Shown: positions 1 to 5,655 of the stretch, piece after piece
How positions within the stretch are numbered: position 1 is the stretch's first letter
How the letters are laid out: every line of letters starts with the position of its first letter
Assembly (NCBI GenBank): GCA_020073615.1
Contig: JAIQEX010000009.1
Location: 1 to 64,000 of the forward strand
Reading direction: 5' to 3'
DNA: 64,000 nucleotides
DNA from: Terriglobia bacterium
GTDB lineage: Bacteria > Acidobacteriota > Terriglobia > Bryobacterales > Bryobacteraceae
The notes under the pieces: generated by a model
The model's input: the letters and a program-made list of their open reading frames with translations, nothing else
The model's database searches: none
What the model was told of the DNA's origin: nothing
Translations under genes and position numbers: made by a program

Positions 1-273
1 AATTCTTCCGCTTCGGCGCGTTCGGCGAGATGGCGAAAACGCGCGCCGGTCTGGCGAAGATGGCCATCGCCGAGGCACGCCGCCGCGGCTGGATCGCGCG
101 CGGCGCGCCGGTTTCGCTCATTGGCGACGCCCCCGCCGACATCCTGGCCGCGCGGAGCAACCACATCCGCGCCATCGCCGTTCAGACCGGCATCACGCCG
201 GTGGCGGAACTGGTGGCGGAGCATCCCGACGTGCTGCTGCGCGATCTGCGCGATCTGCGACTGCGCATGATCG
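1..273 (+). repeat. Left copy of a direct repeat (HAD gene 3' end)
   Basis: Bases 1-273 align without gaps to 2498-2770, offset 2497, with about ten substitutions, mostly at third codon positions. The repeat may extend left beyond the window. The two copies enclose a toxin-antitoxin pair, an integrase remnant and a two-gene cassette. Confidence 0.9.
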
Positions 274-326
274 AGGGCGCAACCGTCAGTGATCTCCGGC
301 CGACGCGATCAAGCCTTCCAGCATGA
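3..326 (+). CDS. HAD-family hydrolase, 3' end only (copy 1, cut by window edge)
   Basis: This is the C-terminal part of a haloacid-dehalogenase-type phosphatase; the 5' part lies outside the window. The visible part has the HAD motif around SLIGDAPADILAAR, which carries the acidic Mg-binding residues. Up to about base 273 it is almost identical to the complete gene at 2080-2778, with roughly ten mismatches. After that the two differ: this copy runs on through about 18 unrelated codons (ATVSDLRP...) before its stop, while copy 2 ends directly after MIET. The last 41 bases overlap the convergent zapA-like gene. It cannot be told whether copy 1 is a complete gene or only a tail. Confidence 0.75.
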   Translation, partial: FFRFGAFGEMAKTRAGLAKMAIAEARRRGWIARGAPVSLIGDAPADILAARSNHIRAIAVQTGITPVAELVAEHPDVLLRDLRDLRLRMIEGATVSDLRPTRSSLPA

Positions 327-534
327 TGGCGAACTCTTCGCTTTTGCGGTCCACCCGGTCCTTGAGCCGGTTCAGATCGCACTCGAGCGCTTGCAGACGG
401 TCCGCCAAGTGCAGGCAGGCAAGCACCGCAATGTGCGTGGAATCGGCGTTGGGGGCCTTCGAGGCGATGGTGAGCATGAGGTCGTCGACACTCGCCGCCA
501 GCGCCTCCTCCTCGCGCGGATGTGCGCCGGGCAC
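286..534 (-). pseudogene. ZapA-like cell-division protein, N-terminally truncated
   Basis: The 82-residue product resembles the C-terminal two-thirds of ZapA, which bundles FtsZ filaments at the Z-ring. The recognisable part is the helix containing STHIAVLACLHLADRLQALE followed by a coiled-coil-like helix. The N-terminal beta strands of normal ZapA (a V-x-I-Y-G-Q type start) are absent. The frame opens directly after a TAG at 538-540 with a GTG at 534 and no visible ribosome site, so the 5' end has probably been lost at a rearrangement breakpoint near base 540. It overlaps the end of HAD copy 1 convergently. A shortened but functional gene is possible but less likely. Confidence 0.5.
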
Positions 535-542
535 CGCCTAAA

Positions 543-553
543 ATGGTATAACA
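543..553 (+). promoter_or_regulatory. Possible extended -10 promoter of brnTA
   Basis: The run TGGTATAAC at 544-552 fits an extended -10 element 12 bases upstream of the brnT start. BrnTA operons are normally repressed by BrnA binding at the promoter. No clear -35 box or operator palindrome is visible, so this is a weak call. Confidence 0.3.
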
Positions 554-563
554 GTCATATCAG

Positions 564-842
564 ATGCGGTTCAGCTTCGATGTGCGAAAGAGCAGGCGCC
601 TCAGAGCGAATCCGCGGCGTGGCATCGGGTTTGAGGAGGCGCGTAAATTGTTCTCACGGCCTTACTGGCTCGATCAGCGATCCGATGTTCCGGAACAGTT
701 TTTGGCCGTCGGCTGGGTGGGCGACCGCCTGTACTCCGTCATCTTTGAAGTCAGGGAAGACGAAGAGGGCGAAATTTTGCATCTCGTCACTTTGTGGAGG
801 TCAACGAAAGAGGAGATCCGACTATATGAAGAAAACTCGTAA
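564..842 (+). CDS. brnT: BrnT-family toxin (RelE-like fold RNase)
   Basis: The 92-residue protein matches BrnT in size and pattern: an N-terminal F-x-F-D-x-R-K segment, the G-I-G-F-E-E-A-R-K-L-F helix, then a strand-rich half ending in W-R-S-T-K-E-E-I-R-L-Y. BrnT toxins are ribosome-independent mRNA endonucleases held inactive by the antitoxin BrnA. The gene overlaps the next gene by 17 bases, typical of coupled toxin-antitoxin pairs. The start ATG at 564 is close behind the candidate -10 box, so the leader would be very short. Base composition is less GC-rich than the flanking core genes, consistent with acquisition. Confidence 0.8.
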   Translation: MRFSFDVRKSRRLRANPRRGIGFEEARKLFSRPYWLDQRSDVPEQFLAVGWVGDRLYSVIFEVREDEEGEILHLVTLWRSTKEEIRLYEENS

Positions 843-1110
843 GTCCGCCAAGCCGGTTTCCGCCGACGGCATTGCTCGTCTGGCGGATCAAGGCAAGGAC
901 GTTTCCCATTTTTTCAAGGGACAAGGGCGCATGGTTCAACCGATTCAACGCGTCAATGTGGACGTCACTGCCGCCATGCTGGAGGAGTTGGACAGGGCCG
1001 CGAAGGACCTCAACGTGAGCCGCCAGGCGGTCATCAAGACTCTCGTCCGGCAAGCGCTCGATCAACACTACCTCGCACAACGCGCGCGGCGGCCTCAGCC
1101 GACGTCCTAG
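826..1110 (+). CDS. brnA: BrnA-like antitoxin (ribbon-helix-helix)
   Basis: This 94-residue protein has a basic N-terminal half and a C-terminal ribbon-helix-helix segment (VDVTAAMLEELDRAAKDL then VSRQAVIKTLVRQALDQH), the DNA-binding and dimerisation fold of BrnA/CopG-type antitoxins. It is expected to wrap BrnT and to repress the brnTA promoter. The ATG at 826 lies inside brnT, preceded by AGGAG at 811-815. The first 40 residues are rich in Lys and Gln and would form the toxin-neutralising extension; in classical BrnA the DNA-binding part is also C-terminal. Confidence 0.78.
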   Translation: MKKTRKSAKPVSADGIARLADQGKDVSHFFKGQGRMVQPIQRVNVDVTAAMLEELDRAAKDLNVSRQAVIKTLVRQALDQHYLAQRARRPQPTS

Positions 1111-1119
1111 CCCGCGACC

Positions 1120-1371
1120 GCTACCGGAGTGCGCCCGGATGGCCGCTATGTGCCAGACCGCGGGCCGGAGGTTGGCTGCGCGACGCCGTAGCCCACTACC
1201 CAAAGCGTCGGGCAGCGTTCATGCAGTCCTTGCGTGTTGTGGTCACTTGTTGATCTGGGCGGTGACGAGTTCGAGCACGCGCTTGGCGGCTTTCGGGCTC
1301 GGCGTAAAGAGCGGAGCTGGCTGCAACTCGGGGACGGGCGTGATCGTGATCGCGGTTTCCGGAGAAGTCAT
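1120..1371 (-). pseudogene. Decayed tyrosine recombinase (phage-type integrase), N-terminal remnant
   Basis: The ATG at 1371 opens a 42-codon frame ending in a TGA at 1243. Its product (PLFTPSPKAAKRVLELVTAQ) resembles the start of the SAM-like N-terminal domain of tyrosine integrases. Beyond the stop, another frame continues the expected pattern with TRKDCMNAARRF, and a further frame gives ANLRPAVWHIAAIRA, like the L-x-x-V-x-P-x-H-V-A-A-Y-I segment of XerC-like proteins. The catalytic domain is absent. The start overlaps the stop of the 69-residue gene by four bases, so it was the third gene of that minus-strand operon. The assignment rests on pattern recall only. Confidence 0.45.
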
Positions 1372-1577
1372 CGCGAGAGTCTCCGCTTGGCCGCCCGGAT
1401 CAGGTCGTCGTAGGTTTTGCAAACGAGGTCGGCGGCCGCGTGAACTTCCTTAACAGTCTTTTTGAAGCGCTCCGGCTGCTCATCTTCCCAGTCTTCGGGT
1501 ATTGCCTGACGGTTTCCGTTGCCGACGATGTCGTCGGGCGTTCTCTTACGCGGCGGCTTTTTCTTTACGCGCGTCAC
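1368..1577 (-). CDS. Small charged protein of unknown function
   Basis: A 69-residue, highly charged protein with a Lys/Arg-rich start (MTRVKKKPPRKRTPDD), an acidic middle (EDWEDEQPERF) and a helical end with two cysteine-poor amphipathic stretches. I do not recognise a family. It is translationally coupled on both sides: its start overlaps the stop of the HExxH gene by four bases, and its stop overlaps the integrase-remnant start by four. The tight three-gene layout suggests a mobile cassette in which this could be a regulator or partner of the upstream protein. Confidence 0.5.
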   Translation of the reverse strand: MTRVKKKPPRKRTPDDIVGNGNRQAIPEDWEDEQPERFKKTVKEVHAAADLVCKTYDDLIRAAKRRLSR

Positions 1578-1969
1578 AGCTTGGCCGGGTCTCCTTGGCT
1601 TGGGAATTCGCTTTCCGCGAAAGCGACCGCCTCCTGTTCCAACGGCGCAGCCGGATAGCCGTGCTGGTTCACTTCGGCGAGGTATTGCTGCAAAAATGCC
1701 GGGATGCTACCGAGGCGCTCGTATTGAGCAACGTGTTTGAGCTCATGTGCGATGAGCGTGGCGTCCCTAAGACAATCCTGCCGGACGATGATGCCGTGAC
1801 CGATGCTCAGCCCGGCCGTACCCGGCGTGATGAGGCCGAAGGCTACTGCGGCCTGTCTGAGGTCGGCGTCGTCGGGTAGAGGTAATTCGGACACTCCGAG
1901 TCGGGCCCGGAACTGGCTCGGCCAGGTCGAACAGCTCTGCCTTGGCCTGCCGCTTCGCGGATGCGCCAT
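1574..1969 (-). CDS. Zincin-like HExxH protein (DUF4157-like)
   Basis: The 131-residue product contains HELKHVAQYERLG, which has the HExxH zinc-binding signature inside the H-E-L-x-H-x-x-Q pattern of DUF4157-like domains. About 25 residues on it has PLEQEAVAFA, where the Glu could be the third zinc ligand. Small proteins of this type are presumed metallopeptidases, but many have no assigned substrate. The N-terminal 25 residues from the ATG at 1969 are low-quality sequence; a GTG further in (before SELPLPDD) is an alternative start. It heads a coupled operon with the 69-residue gene and the integrase remnant. Confidence 0.55.
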   Translation of the reverse strand: MAHPRSGRPRQSCSTWPSQFRARLGVSELPLPDDADLRQAAVAFGLITPGTAGLSIGHGIIVRQDCLRDATLIAHELKHVAQYERLGSIPAFLQQYLAEVNQHGYPAAPLEQEAVAFAESEFPSQGDPAKL

Positions 1970-2079
1970 TCGGCCTTGGCCTGGTTCTCGTTGGGATCCC
2001 GGGCGCAGGCCATCTGCACGAGGCCTACACGGAATTTGGCGAAATGCACAACCCTAATGTACGGTTGGCGGGCCCTGTT

Positions 2080-2778
2080 ATGATTGCAGTTTCCGTGAGC
2101 TACCGCGCCCTGGCCCTGTTCGATATCGACGGCACGCTGGTGCGGCGCGCCGGGCCGCATCACCGCGAAGCGCTGGTCCACGGCATCCGCCGCGTGACCG
2201 GGGTCGAAACCACGACGGATGGCATCCCGGTGCAGGGCATGCTCGACCCCGACATTCTGACGACCATGCTGCGCCGCGCGGGCGTGCCGCGGGCGGCGAT
2301 CCGCGAAGCCCTGCCCGCCATTGCGCGCGCCGCCGAGCGTTATTACCTGCGGGTTTGCCCGGCGCTCCACGACAAGCATTGTCCCGGTGTCGAGCCGCTG
2401 CTCGAGCGGCTTACGCGCCGCGGCATCCTGCTGGCGCTGGTCACGGGCAACCTGACGCGCATCGGATGGCGCAAGCTGGAGCGCGCCGGCCTGCGCAAAT
2501 TCTTCCGCTTCGGCGCGTTCGGCGAGATGGCGAAAACGCGCTCCGGCCTGGCGAAGATGGCCATCGCCGAAGCCCGCCGCCGCGGCTGGATCGCGCGCGG
2601 CGCGCCGGTTTCGCTCATCGGCGACGCCCCCGCCGACATCCTGGCCGCGCGGAGCAACCACATCCGCGCCATCGCCGTCCAGACCGGCATCACGCCGGTG
2701 GAAGACCTGGTGGCGGAGCATCCCGACGTGCTGCTGCGCGATCTGCGCGATCTGCGGCTGCGCATGATCGAGACTTAG
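2080..2778 (+). CDS. HAD-superfamily hydrolase (complete, copy 2)
   Basis: A 232-residue cytosolic HAD phosphatase. The catalytic D-x-D is in LFDIDGTLV (residues about 13-20). A cap domain follows, then the T-G-N motif in LALVTGNL, a conserved Lys in the helix before the last motif, and the acidic metal site in SLIGDAPADIL. This is the layout of subfamily I phosphoglycolate phosphatase-like enzymes; the substrate cannot be told. The start ATG at 2080 is chosen because the domain begins right after it; an upstream in-frame ATG at 1942 would add a 46-residue unlikely leader overlapping the divergent HExxH gene. Its last 273 coding bases are duplicated at the left window edge. Confidence 0.85.
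   Translation: MIAVSVSYRALALFDIDGTLVRRAGPHHREALVHGIRRVTGVETTTDGIPVQGMLDPDILTTMLRRAGVPRAAIREALPAIARAAERYYLRVCPALHDKHCPGVEPLLERLTRRGILLALVTGNLTRIGWRKLERAGLRKFFRFGAFGEMAKTRSGLAKMAIAEARRRGWIARGAPVSLIGDAPADILAARSNHIRAIAVQTGITPVEDLVAEHPDVLLRDLRDLRLRMIET
2498..2770 (+). repeat. Right copy of the direct repeat (HAD gene 3' end)
   Basis: This matches bases 1-273 at about 96 percent by eye. Homology stops at the end of the gene: the sequence after the stop codon at 2778 has no counterpart after the left copy. Confidence 0.9.
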
Positions 2779-3169
2779 CCGCTACGCAATTGCGAGATGG
2801 AATGAGGAGGGCTGTTCTCCAGCGAGACCGTTACACATAGCGTGCGCAGGATACTTGCAAGACGGTATCATGGTGCAGAGTGCGTGGGGAACGGCAATGC
2901 CGGATAGTCACTGAGAAATGTGTACTGATCCAGGGTGGCTGCGTCTCAGGAACCAACGGTCCAGGGATGCCTGAATCAACAGGGCCCGGGCATGGTCGAG
3001 CTGGCCGGTGGCCTAGACTGGGAGGAAGGTTCTTGGACCAGGAAGAGATCGTTGCACACAAACCGTTTGTTGCCTGGGTTGGCCGCAGGTGGCTTTCGCC
3101 TCGGGTTGAACAGGACCTTTTGACTTTATTTCGGTCCGCCTAAATAGTGTTTTCGGATCACAAGACAAT
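2779..3169 (+). other. Gene-free stretch of lower GC
   Basis: About 390 bases between the HAD gene and the 3170 gene. Short open frames exist but show no recognisable motif. No transposase signature, tRNA or strong hairpin is visible. Composition is closer to the following gene than to the GC-rich backbone, so it probably belongs to the same acquired segment. Confidence 0.4.
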
Positions 3170-4009
3170 ATGGGCCAGATTCTCATTGGTGCTGTCGGCA
3201 GCCTCGTTGCAACTGTGGTGGTTCTGTTGACCCGGCTGGCTTTTTACAAGGTCTACGACATGTTTCCCGCACGGGCGCTCTTCAAAGGCATAGTGGGTTC
3301 TGAAAAGTCGTGCCTTGTCTTTGTGTTGAGAATGACCGACCTAGAAAGGAAGGGTGAGTTTCTTGGGTTGCTGCCAACATATGCCGTTGCCACACAACAA
3401 CCACGGTTTGAGCGCCGACAGCTCATTCCTTATGTGAATAGCACGAGCGAAACAACCTCAGTAGCTTATGTTCTTAACGTTCTCGGGTCGGCAGGCAGAG
3501 CAGAAAACATTCAACTTGCGTATGTGGACAAAGATTTTGACAAATGGGACGCCCCGATGTTCATTCTCGGAGGTAGTGTGAAAGCTACAAGAGCCTTCGA
3601 AACCTGTAATCCCTATTTTACCTTCCGGGTTGATCGATTTGTCTTGACGTCAACTGGCGAGTCTTACGTGCCGAAGACCGCTGACCACGACATGGGCCTT
3701 CTACAAAAGATGATTAACCCATCTACAAATCTTCCCGTGTGGGTCGCTATGGGCTGGCGGGGTGCCGGCACAATCGCCGCAACATACGCCTTAACACGCT
3801 GGTGGAAAGAGTTAGGCTTCCTGTATGGAAGCAAACCGTTCGGGATGCTTCTCGAGATGAACGACGCGGACGGCTGGCAGCAGTTTAGGATCGTCCGTTT
3901 CCAGCCGGAAGCCGCTCGGCTTCGGAAGATCGTGCATCCATTGGCGTGGTATCGTCTTCGGCGTACCTTACCGCAGGCGTCGCTCAGGGAGGGGCAGGGA
4001 CTTCACTAA
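3170..4009 (+). CDS. Single-pass membrane protein with SLOG/STALD-like sensor domain
   Basis: The 279-residue protein starts with one membrane helix (about residues 4-24). The rest resembles nucleotide-sensing Rossmann-like SLOG/STALD domains: a strand ending FILGGSVKAT (132-140), an Asp/His turn DHDMGLLQK (172-180), and a glycine loop GWRGAGTIAATYAL (195-208). In known defence systems such domains bind NAD-derived or cyclic nucleotide signals and are joined to Sir2, TIR or membrane effectors. Here the only possible effector is the single N-terminal helix. Codon use is clearly less GC-rich than all neighbours, suggesting horizontal transfer. No partner gene is adjacent. The family call is from pattern recall and is tentative; that it is a real membrane-anchored protein is fairly sure. 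Confidence 0.5.
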   Translation: MGQILIGAVGSLVATVVVLLTRLAFYKVYDMFPARALFKGIVGSEKSCLVFVLRMTDLERKGEFLGLLPTYAVATQQPRFERRQLIPYVNSTSETTSVAYVLNVLGSAGRAENIQLAYVDKDFDKWDAPMFILGGSVKATRAFETCNPYFTFRVDRFVLTSTGESYVPKTADHDMGLLQKMINPSTNLPVWVAMGWRGAGTIAATYALTRWWKELGFLYGSKPFGMLLEMNDADGWQQFRIVRFQPEAARLRKIVHPLAWYRLRRTLPQASLREGQGLH

Positions 4010-4068
4010 GCAGAGGCGGGATTCTCACGGAATCCGCGCGCGTCACCAAGGGTTACGGAAACAACCCG

Positions 4069-5655
4069 CTACCGAACGCGGTACACCAGGTACCTGGAGT
4101 TCTCGAACGCCGCTACGCGATCCAGCCGGTTCGCCGGCTGCAGCACCACATAGCCGATGCCCAGTCCATCGTATTTCGCCAGGTCTGCCGCCCGGAACCC
4201 CCGCGCCATGGTCTGTTGCCAGCGAAACCACCACCGCTCGCCGAAACCCCGCAGGTAATTCACCTGGCCGCCGCCCTTCCAATCTACATAAACGGCGCGT
4301 AGCGCTGCGGAGCGGAACACGCCCGGGGAGAGCGCGCGGCCGGCGTCGGGGAAAATGAATACAGCGTCCTGCGGTGTGTTGGACCGCGCCCATTCGGAGA
4401 GCTGCGCCAGCTCCGGCGTGTGCAAGCGGGGATAGTTGACCACGCCACCCAGCGTGGGAATGGCAAAGAAGGCAACCACCGCCGCCAGCGGTGCGAACCG
4501 TGGCCTGCTCCACACCACCACCGCGGTGAATGCCGCGAGCGCCGCTGCCAGCGCGATGCGGCTCCCCACGAACGGCCCGGTAATCACCGCCTGAAGCGGC
4601 AGCAGGTAGGCCATCGCAAGCCAGGCCATAGCCTCCGCCGGGCGCCCGCGCACCGCCGCGCGCACGCCGGCCACCGCCGTGAGGAATTGCATGCCCAGCG
4701 CTACAAACAGCAGAGTCCGCATGGGCTGCAACTGCGGAATGAGCGCCCATCGCCAGCGCTCCAGCAGCAGCCCCGAGGCCGGCATGGCGGCCACGCCGAG
4801 GATGGACAGGCCCAGCAGCAGCAAGCGCAGCTCCACGGGCATCTCGCGCCGGAGGCGCGCCCACGCCGCCAGGAAGATGACCAACAGGACGATCCAGTGC
4901 ACCACCAGCAGCGGCGGCCAGCTCGAGATCCACACGTAGGCGGCGCGCATCCGCTGGATCTGTTCGTCGGATGGCGCGAGAGCCGCGAAAAACGGCTGTT
5001 CCGCGGCGGCGCCGCCCTGAATGCGCGCGGCCAGCCACAGAATCCCCATGGCGGCAGCCAGCGGCGCCAGACCCCACCACCGGCGGCGCGCGATGGCGAG
5101 CGCCGCAAACAGCCCCCAAAACGGAAGCGCCGTGGGCGCGTGGTACAGAAAAGCGATCGCCGCCGCGATCCCGGCGTCCCGGTACCGCCGGTGCGCCGCC
5201 AGCCCCAAGGCGCACATCACCAGCGGCACGGCGAAGGCGCGCGGCGTGGGCTCATACTCGATGGTCAGCACCTGCGGGCCCGCGATCAGTGCGCCCAGCG
5301 AGCATATGCCGGCCACCGCGAGCGCAGGGCCCGCGGCAAGTCCCATCGCCGCCGCCATCAGGTACAAGCCCCAAATTCCCAGCGCGCGCGCCGTCACCTG
5401 CTCCAGGGCCAGCACCGCGCGAAAACTTAGGCCCGTCACGCGGCGCAACCCCAGAGCGGTTTCGTCGTAGAGCGTGTACGCCACCTGCGATTGCTGCGCC
5501 AGCATATCGTTGCGCAACACGGAGTCATCCCGCAGGTGCTCCAACACGGGCGCATAAATCTGGCTGTCCTGCTGCAGCCAGGTGTGTCCCGGGAATTGAA
5601 AGAAGGTCAGGAGCGCGAGCGCTACCACCGCCGCGGCCGTCGCGACCGGCTTCAT
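4069..5655 (-). CDS. Polytopic membrane protein, DUF6798-like C-terminal domain
   Basis: A 528-residue protein with about ten hydrophobic helices and a soluble C-terminal domain of about 110 residues containing NTPQDAVFIFPD and an F-R-S...Y-V-D-W-K-G-G pattern. This fold and motif order occur in uncharacterised envelope proteins related to GT-C glycosyltransferases, and the acidic site expected in the first outer loop may be the D-S-Q near residue 30. No substrate can be assigned. Its start overlaps the stop of the upstream TPR gene by four bases, so it is translationally coupled as the last gene of the MFS-TPR-DUF6798 operon. Confidence 0.65.
   Translation of the reverse strand: MKPVATAAAVVALALLTFFQFPGHTWLQQDSQIYAPVLEHLRDDSVLRNDMLAQQSQVAYTLYDETALGLRRVTGLSFRAVLALEQVTARALGIWGLYLMAAAMGLAAGPALAVAGICSLGALIAGPQVLTIEYEPTPRAFAVPLVMCALGLAAHRRYRDAGIAAAIAFLYHAPTALPFWGLFAALAIARRRWWGLAPLAAAMGILWLAARIQGGAAAEQPFFAALAPSDEQIQRMRAAYVWISSWPPLLVVHWIVLLVIFLAAWARLRREMPVELRLLLLGLSILGVAAMPASGLLLERWRWALIPQLQPMRTLLFVALGMQFLTAVAGVRAAVRGRPAEAMAWLAMAYLLPLQAVITGPFVGSRIALAAALAAFTAVVVWSRPRFAPLAAVVAFFAIPTLGGVVNYPRLHTPELAQLSEWARSNTPQDAVFIFPDAGRALSPGVFRSAALRAVYVDWKGGGQVNYLRGFGERWWFRWQQTMARGFRAADLAKYDGLGIGYVVLQPANRLDRVAAFENSRYLVYRVR

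Follow-up and report, generated by a model that had tools for sequence, protein, structure and literature searches.

Accessory mosaic DNA at a duplicated HAD gene in a draft acidobacterial genome

Introduction

Foreign DNA that matches a bacterial chromosome at one end only can leave a duplicated piece of its target behind. In Escherichia coli, a fragment with one-end homology to lacZ gave 60 clones, 56 of which carried a partial target duplication, and these duplications were ascribed to a circular molecule recombining through a single crossover (Amarir-Bouhram et al., PMC3240628). Gene duplication by natural transformation has also been described in Streptococcus pneumoniae, where it produces merodiploids (Johnston et al., PMC3784515). 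The pneumococcal duplications are mostly 100–900 kb and self-derived, though a small one, of about 3.3 kb and lacking flanking repeats, was observed as well (PMC3784515).

Here we analyze a locus in the draft genome of an uncultured soil acidobacterium of the family Bryobacteraceae, at which accessory DNA lies beside two copies of a phosphatase-like HAD hydrolase gene. It offers a small, readable case in which foreign scrap DNA appears to have been joined to an acidobacterial chromosome via homology to one ordinary gene, an integration that would leave the duplicated gene around its cargo.

Results

The genome is a 6.96-Mb MAG-like draft (252 contigs, 98% complete, 2.1% contamination), and the window, by which we mean the whole 64,000-bp stretch that was analyzed, has as its first base the end of one of these contigs (C118). 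The features at this end of the window are as follows.

1–326, plus strand: HAD copy 1 (HAD1), 3′ part; homology to copy 2 stops at 275
286–521, minus strand: zapA′, a 236-bp 3′ fragment of zapA that lacks 76 bp at the 5′ end
544–562, plus strand: conserved TGGTATAACAGTCATA(TCA) motif, probable promoter/operator; also precedes brnT in other genomes
564–842, plus strand: brnT-like gene, intact ORF, 92 aa, predicted RNase toxin (PF04365)
826–1110, plus strand: brnA-like gene, 94 aa, predicted ribbon-helix-helix (RHH) antitoxin; overlaps brnT
1243–1371, minus strand: first ~42 codons of a XerD-like tyrosine integrase gene (N-terminal stub); matches the N-terminus of L076, an integrase of 328 aa, at 62% identity
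1368–1577, minus strand: 69-aa ORF; overlaps both neighbors, at ATGA with the start of the integrase and at GTGA with the stop of HExxH
1574–1885, minus strand: HExxH (HELKH) protein gene, 5′-truncated; the N-terminal ~65 aa present in relatives are missing
1900–2079, minus strand: aguB′, a fragment of the 5′ end of an N-carbamoylputrescine amidase-like gene, with the aguB/HAD intergenic region
2080–2778, plus strand: HAD copy 2 (HAD2), complete gene, 232 aa; stop codon position as in G001, a genome of the same genus
2779–4068, no strand: second accessory stretch, from the end of HAD2 to the DUF6798 gene; GC down to 0.47
3170–4009, plus strand: orphan ORF, 279 aa, no family match
4069–5655, minus strand: conserved gene for a DUF6798-containing membrane protein; right border, and native HAD neighbor in G001

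Positions 1–275 and 2498–2772 form a gapless direct repeat of 96% identity (264 of 274 positions in a second alignment), far beyond chance and as reported in the first-pass annotation. That annotation took both copies for the 3′ ends of HAD genes, which holds for copy 1 as it stands in the window; copy 2 is a complete gene preceded by aguB′. The appearance of two 3′ ends is partly an edge effect, since the window starts where the contig does. The annotation had also asked whether copy 1 is complete to the left of the window, and a second contig, C72, bears on this: its positions 1–272 (minus strand) are 98% identical to window positions 1939–2210, which cover the 5′ part of HAD and the intergenic region between HAD and aguB; farther along, C72 carries an intact aguB and then aguA (gene names that we presume from a Pfam CN_hydrolase match and the neighboring sequence). 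On the basis of this match, the 5′ part of HAD1 very probably lies on the end of C72, and HAD1 is very probably a full gene too.

C72 stops in HAD at the equivalent of position 2210 and C118 starts at the equivalent of 2498, leaving the middle ~287 bp of HAD1 absent from the assembly; this segment was found on no other contig of the genome. Such an absence is expected if both HAD copies are near-identical there and the assembler merged them. We infer both the C72–C118 join and the identity of the two copies in mid-HAD across this unassembled gap. At its other end, HAD1 is cut inside its last two codons, losing the last native codon and the stop, and the ORF reads through to 326, so that the full product is predicted to be ~247 aa with a run-on end.

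The duplicated block consists of the whole HAD gene and ~180 bp upstream of it (the aguB 5′ part and the intergenic region), and aguB′ carries an internal deletion of ~60 bp. Over their assembled parts the HAD copies differ at 16 of 546 sites (2.2% in the 5′ part and 3.7% in the 3′ part), with 6 of the 10 differences in the 3′ part being synonymous. Assigned to branches, changes are more numerous on the HAD1 side at both ends (3 versus 1 in the 5′ part, 7 versus 2 in the 3′ part), a polarity that seems to give no clean sign of reciprocal chimaeras and is not decisive.

G001, the only same-genus genome compared, carries on one contig aguA–aguB and a single HAD gene, followed after a 70-bp spacer by genes for the DUF6798 membrane protein, a TPR protein, and an MFS protein. 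The reverse complement of C72 aligns to the left half of this locus and C118, from about position 4069, to the right half; this collinearity indicates that both contigs flank one locus. Positions 276–4068 are absent from the G001 HAD locus, and since G001 has a single HAD gene and a 70-bp gap, the ~3.8 kb between HAD1 and the DUF6798 gene are accessory. Judging by its parts, this segment is a mosaic of zapA′, the BrnTA pair, a HExxH–69-aa–integrase operon, the aguB′–HAD block, and the stretch with the orphan ORF.

A wider comparison drew on 52 HAD loci of the family taken from public genomes, some of them shortened by contig ends. None has a second HAD gene (0/52), and zapA, BrnT, HExxH, orphan ORF, or related integrase genes were not found in the DNA fetched for these loci. 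Across them aguB is often the divergent neighbor of HAD. The DUF6798 gene follows HAD in the genus only, and the 3′ side of HAD therefore changes often across the family. The first-pass annotation placed an island between the repeats, ending at 2778, and named relatives with two full HAD genes around the same cargo, as an old vertically inherited arrangement, as the pattern that would speak against insertion. That pattern was looked for and not seen, and we reject an old HAD pair given one HAD per locus throughout the family; the island is accessory (an empty site in G001, 52 loci without the cargo), but it extends to about 4068.

Between the repeats, the truncated zapA and the BrnTA pair are present as first annotated. 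zapA′ is 94% identical to the intact zapA of the same genome, which lies on contig C8, next to rplT and to what we take for a DUF1684-like gene, and 12 of the 14 differences are synonymous. On the branch of zapA′ itself 8 of 10 changes are synonymous (a probability of ~4e-4 if a quarter of random changes were synonymous), so the fragment diverged mostly as a working gene in another lineage. It is about as far from its own genome's intact zapA as is the zapA of G001, whereas the HAD copies are much closer to each other.

The junction between HAD1 and zapA′ holds ~10 bp of filler at 275–286. Both homologies stop where the respective gene ends on its 3′ side, a pattern that random breakage would not predict. 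In G001 as well as here, the stop codon of zapA overlaps the start of the gene that follows; the zapA′ break is therefore exact. The first-pass annotation had expected related genomes to show a single HAD–zapA locus, which was found in none of them: zapA is not the native neighbor of HAD. A native HAD–zapA locus was accordingly rejected, as zapA sits with rplT and the DUF1684-like gene on C8 and adjoins HAD in 0/52 loci.

The order of the BrnTA pair, with brnT upstream of an overlapping RHH-type brnA, is the one expected of such systems. BrnT matches PF04365 below the cut-off (E 2.5e-5); BrnA matches RHH_1 above the cut-off and the NCBIfam BrnA model below it (E 4.5e-14). Relatives of both proteins that are 87–93% identical occur in three other genera of the family and in another family, in genomes whose HAD proteins are just 58–74% identical, which indicates that the pair moves horizontally. 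The BrnTA pairs at four loci in other genomes (L050, L051, L052, and L053) each have TGGTATAACAGTCATA upstream, and these pairs appear to be a recently spreading acidobacterial subgroup that falls below current Pfam and NCBIfam cut-offs. We rejected the idea of a mobile cassette with fixed ends, as homology elsewhere covers the operon and operator alone. With regard to a possible integron cassette array, no common edge sequence was found among BrnTA neighbors in other genomes, and the stretch 3′ of brnA (1110–1245), the one end checked for an attC-like fold, folds no better than its shuffles (z −0.57).

The three genes at 1243–1885 form a minus-strand operon with overlapping stop and start codons (GTGA and ATGA). 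Its HExxH protein shows weak similarity to eCIS_core. The HExxH ORF and the remnant of a tyrosine integrase were both named in the first-pass annotation, which saw a cassette in the former and decay in the latter; the HExxH gene is 5′-truncated relative to its relatives, and the integrase is an N-terminal stub and not a gene decayed along its length. A search of 298 other genomes of the class gave no relative of the 69-aa protein, and no integrase was found among the ORFs listed at the loci of two HExxH relatives (L071 and L072). These two results led us to reject the trio as a recurring module.

The second accessory stretch (2779–4068) is absent from G001 and from 39 other relatives. Across 199 other genomes of the order, its orphan ORF, with GC near 0.5 and a hydrophobic N-terminal stretch, has a single relative, which is weak and partial (35% identity). 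Searches of Pfam, NCBIfam, PADLOC, PHROGs, plasmids, and viral contigs returned no relative, and PDB matches reached only E near 0.9. At the four edges of the accessory DNA (276, 1900, 2772, and 4068), no att-like repeats, target duplications, or inverted repeats of at least 7 bp were found beyond the HAD repeat.

Discussion

We are highly confident that an accessory insertion of some kind at the HAD locus is real, and it probably arose through homologous recombination rather than through an integrase. Homologous integration is favored because the duplicated block shares homology with exactly the locus that it occupies, which chance insertion would not explain. As to the route, our data suggest, with about even confidence, a Campbell-like additive integration at HAD, by single crossover, of a scrap molecule derived from a congener. 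The ancestral order would have been that of G001, with aguA–aguB (leftward), HAD (rightward), and the DUF6798 gene. The scrap molecule would have held an HAD/aguB′ block of ~870 bp and 1.6 kb of other fragments: the 3′ end of a congener's zapA, the BrnTA pair, and the broken HExxH–69-aa–integrase operon. A single crossover inside HAD, with a circularized fragment or by an equivalent unequal exchange, would then have yielded, in this order, native aguB, a HAD1 whose 3′ end is foreign, the cargo, the aguB′–HAD2 block, and native sequence again.

The cargo lies between direct repeats that share homology with the resident locus, as a Campbell-like integration would leave it. Outside the repeats, the left side (C72) is native up to HAD, and on the right 1.3 kb of other DNA precede the DUF6798 gene; single-crossover integration needs a second event for this stretch (2779–4068), which might have been added separately or lost in G001. 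The collapse of mid-HAD, set against the differences outside it, suggests a homogenized crossover or conversion tract. The mismatch in divergence between zapA′ and HAD may mean that the pieces differ in age and source. The cargo is mostly debris; BrnTA, its sole intact module, may help to keep the segment through addiction.

The same order could have come about if the aguB′–HAD block had first been tandemly duplicated in this lineage, with successive small insertions following by illegitimate end-joining. This course is possible but unlikely: while several junctions resemble unrelated truncations with short filler (as at HAD1/zapA′), and zapA′ and the HAD copies have diverged unequally, as separate events would give, the synonymous share of the HAD 3′ differences implies copies long selected or from separate lineages, and many independent insertions would be needed within 1.6 kb.

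Assembly error deserves consideration in a MAG-like draft of so many contigs, especially for a feature that begins at a contig end and has copies differing by a few percent, as strain variants would. We nevertheless find it doubtful that the left 2.8 kb of C118 mix strains or chimeric reads, since the junctions lack long k-mers common to the native loci, aguB′ (deletion included) and HAD2 run without a break into the remainder of C118, and some strain would still need to have the same tandem order.

The first-pass annotation proposed that an element inserted into the HAD 3′ end and brought a replacement end with it. In its fullest form, this explanation has an element integrate by its own tyrosine integrase, restore the gene end with its own copy, and then decay. 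The integrase remnant fits such a history, as does the cut of HAD1 in its last two codons opposite a HAD2 that keeps the native stop position. We consider it very unlikely all the same, and do not uphold the proposal: the duplication takes in the whole gene and DNA upstream of it, the integrase is a 42-residue stub in the middle of the island, the edges show neither att-like short repeats nor a target duplication, and a related integrase lies nearby in 0/52 family HAD loci. Set beside known 3′-end elements, the locus shares the empty site (in G001), and it has neither a complete integrase nor a duplication limited to an att core.

A similarly slim chance attaches to two further readings taken together, namely that the HAD1–zapA′ junction is the relic of a true convergent HAD/zapA locus in an unsampled congener (which would have arisen there through a chromosomal rearrangement whose two breakpoints fell at gene ends, before being imported), or that the HExxH–69-aa–integrase operon is what remains of a small mobile element not yet described.

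Single-crossover integration of scrap DNA stands as our preferred reading, and the locus carries a caution for annotators: a contig end can disguise a full duplicated gene as a "replacement 3′ end" and so mislead island callers applied to MAGs.

Compared with known systems, the BrnTA pair resembles type II toxin–antitoxin systems of that name in placing the toxin gene before an overlapping RHH antitoxin gene, with an operator-like motif upstream; both proteins fall below the curated BrnT and BrnA cut-offs, so the pair belongs to a divergent acidobacterial subgroup. Genomic islands in gene 3′ ends likewise place accessory DNA next to the end of a gene, and the integrase remnant here is a further likeness, but this locus duplicates a whole gene and has neither an att-type short repeat nor a complete integrase. 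The merodiploids of S. pneumoniae are alike in that a donor fragment and sister chromatids give rise to tandem gene copies (PMC3784515), though the unit here is ~2.5 kb and includes foreign DNA. Single-crossover integration in E. coli (PMC3240628) also places foreign DNA between two copies of a target segment and involves a block homologous to the target; in contrast to those clones, we infer the event, and the circle, from an old natural locus in an uncultured acidobacterium, where the duplicated block is a whole gene and the cargo is itself a mosaic. The locus is an ordinary accessory mosaic and a further example of an already known process.
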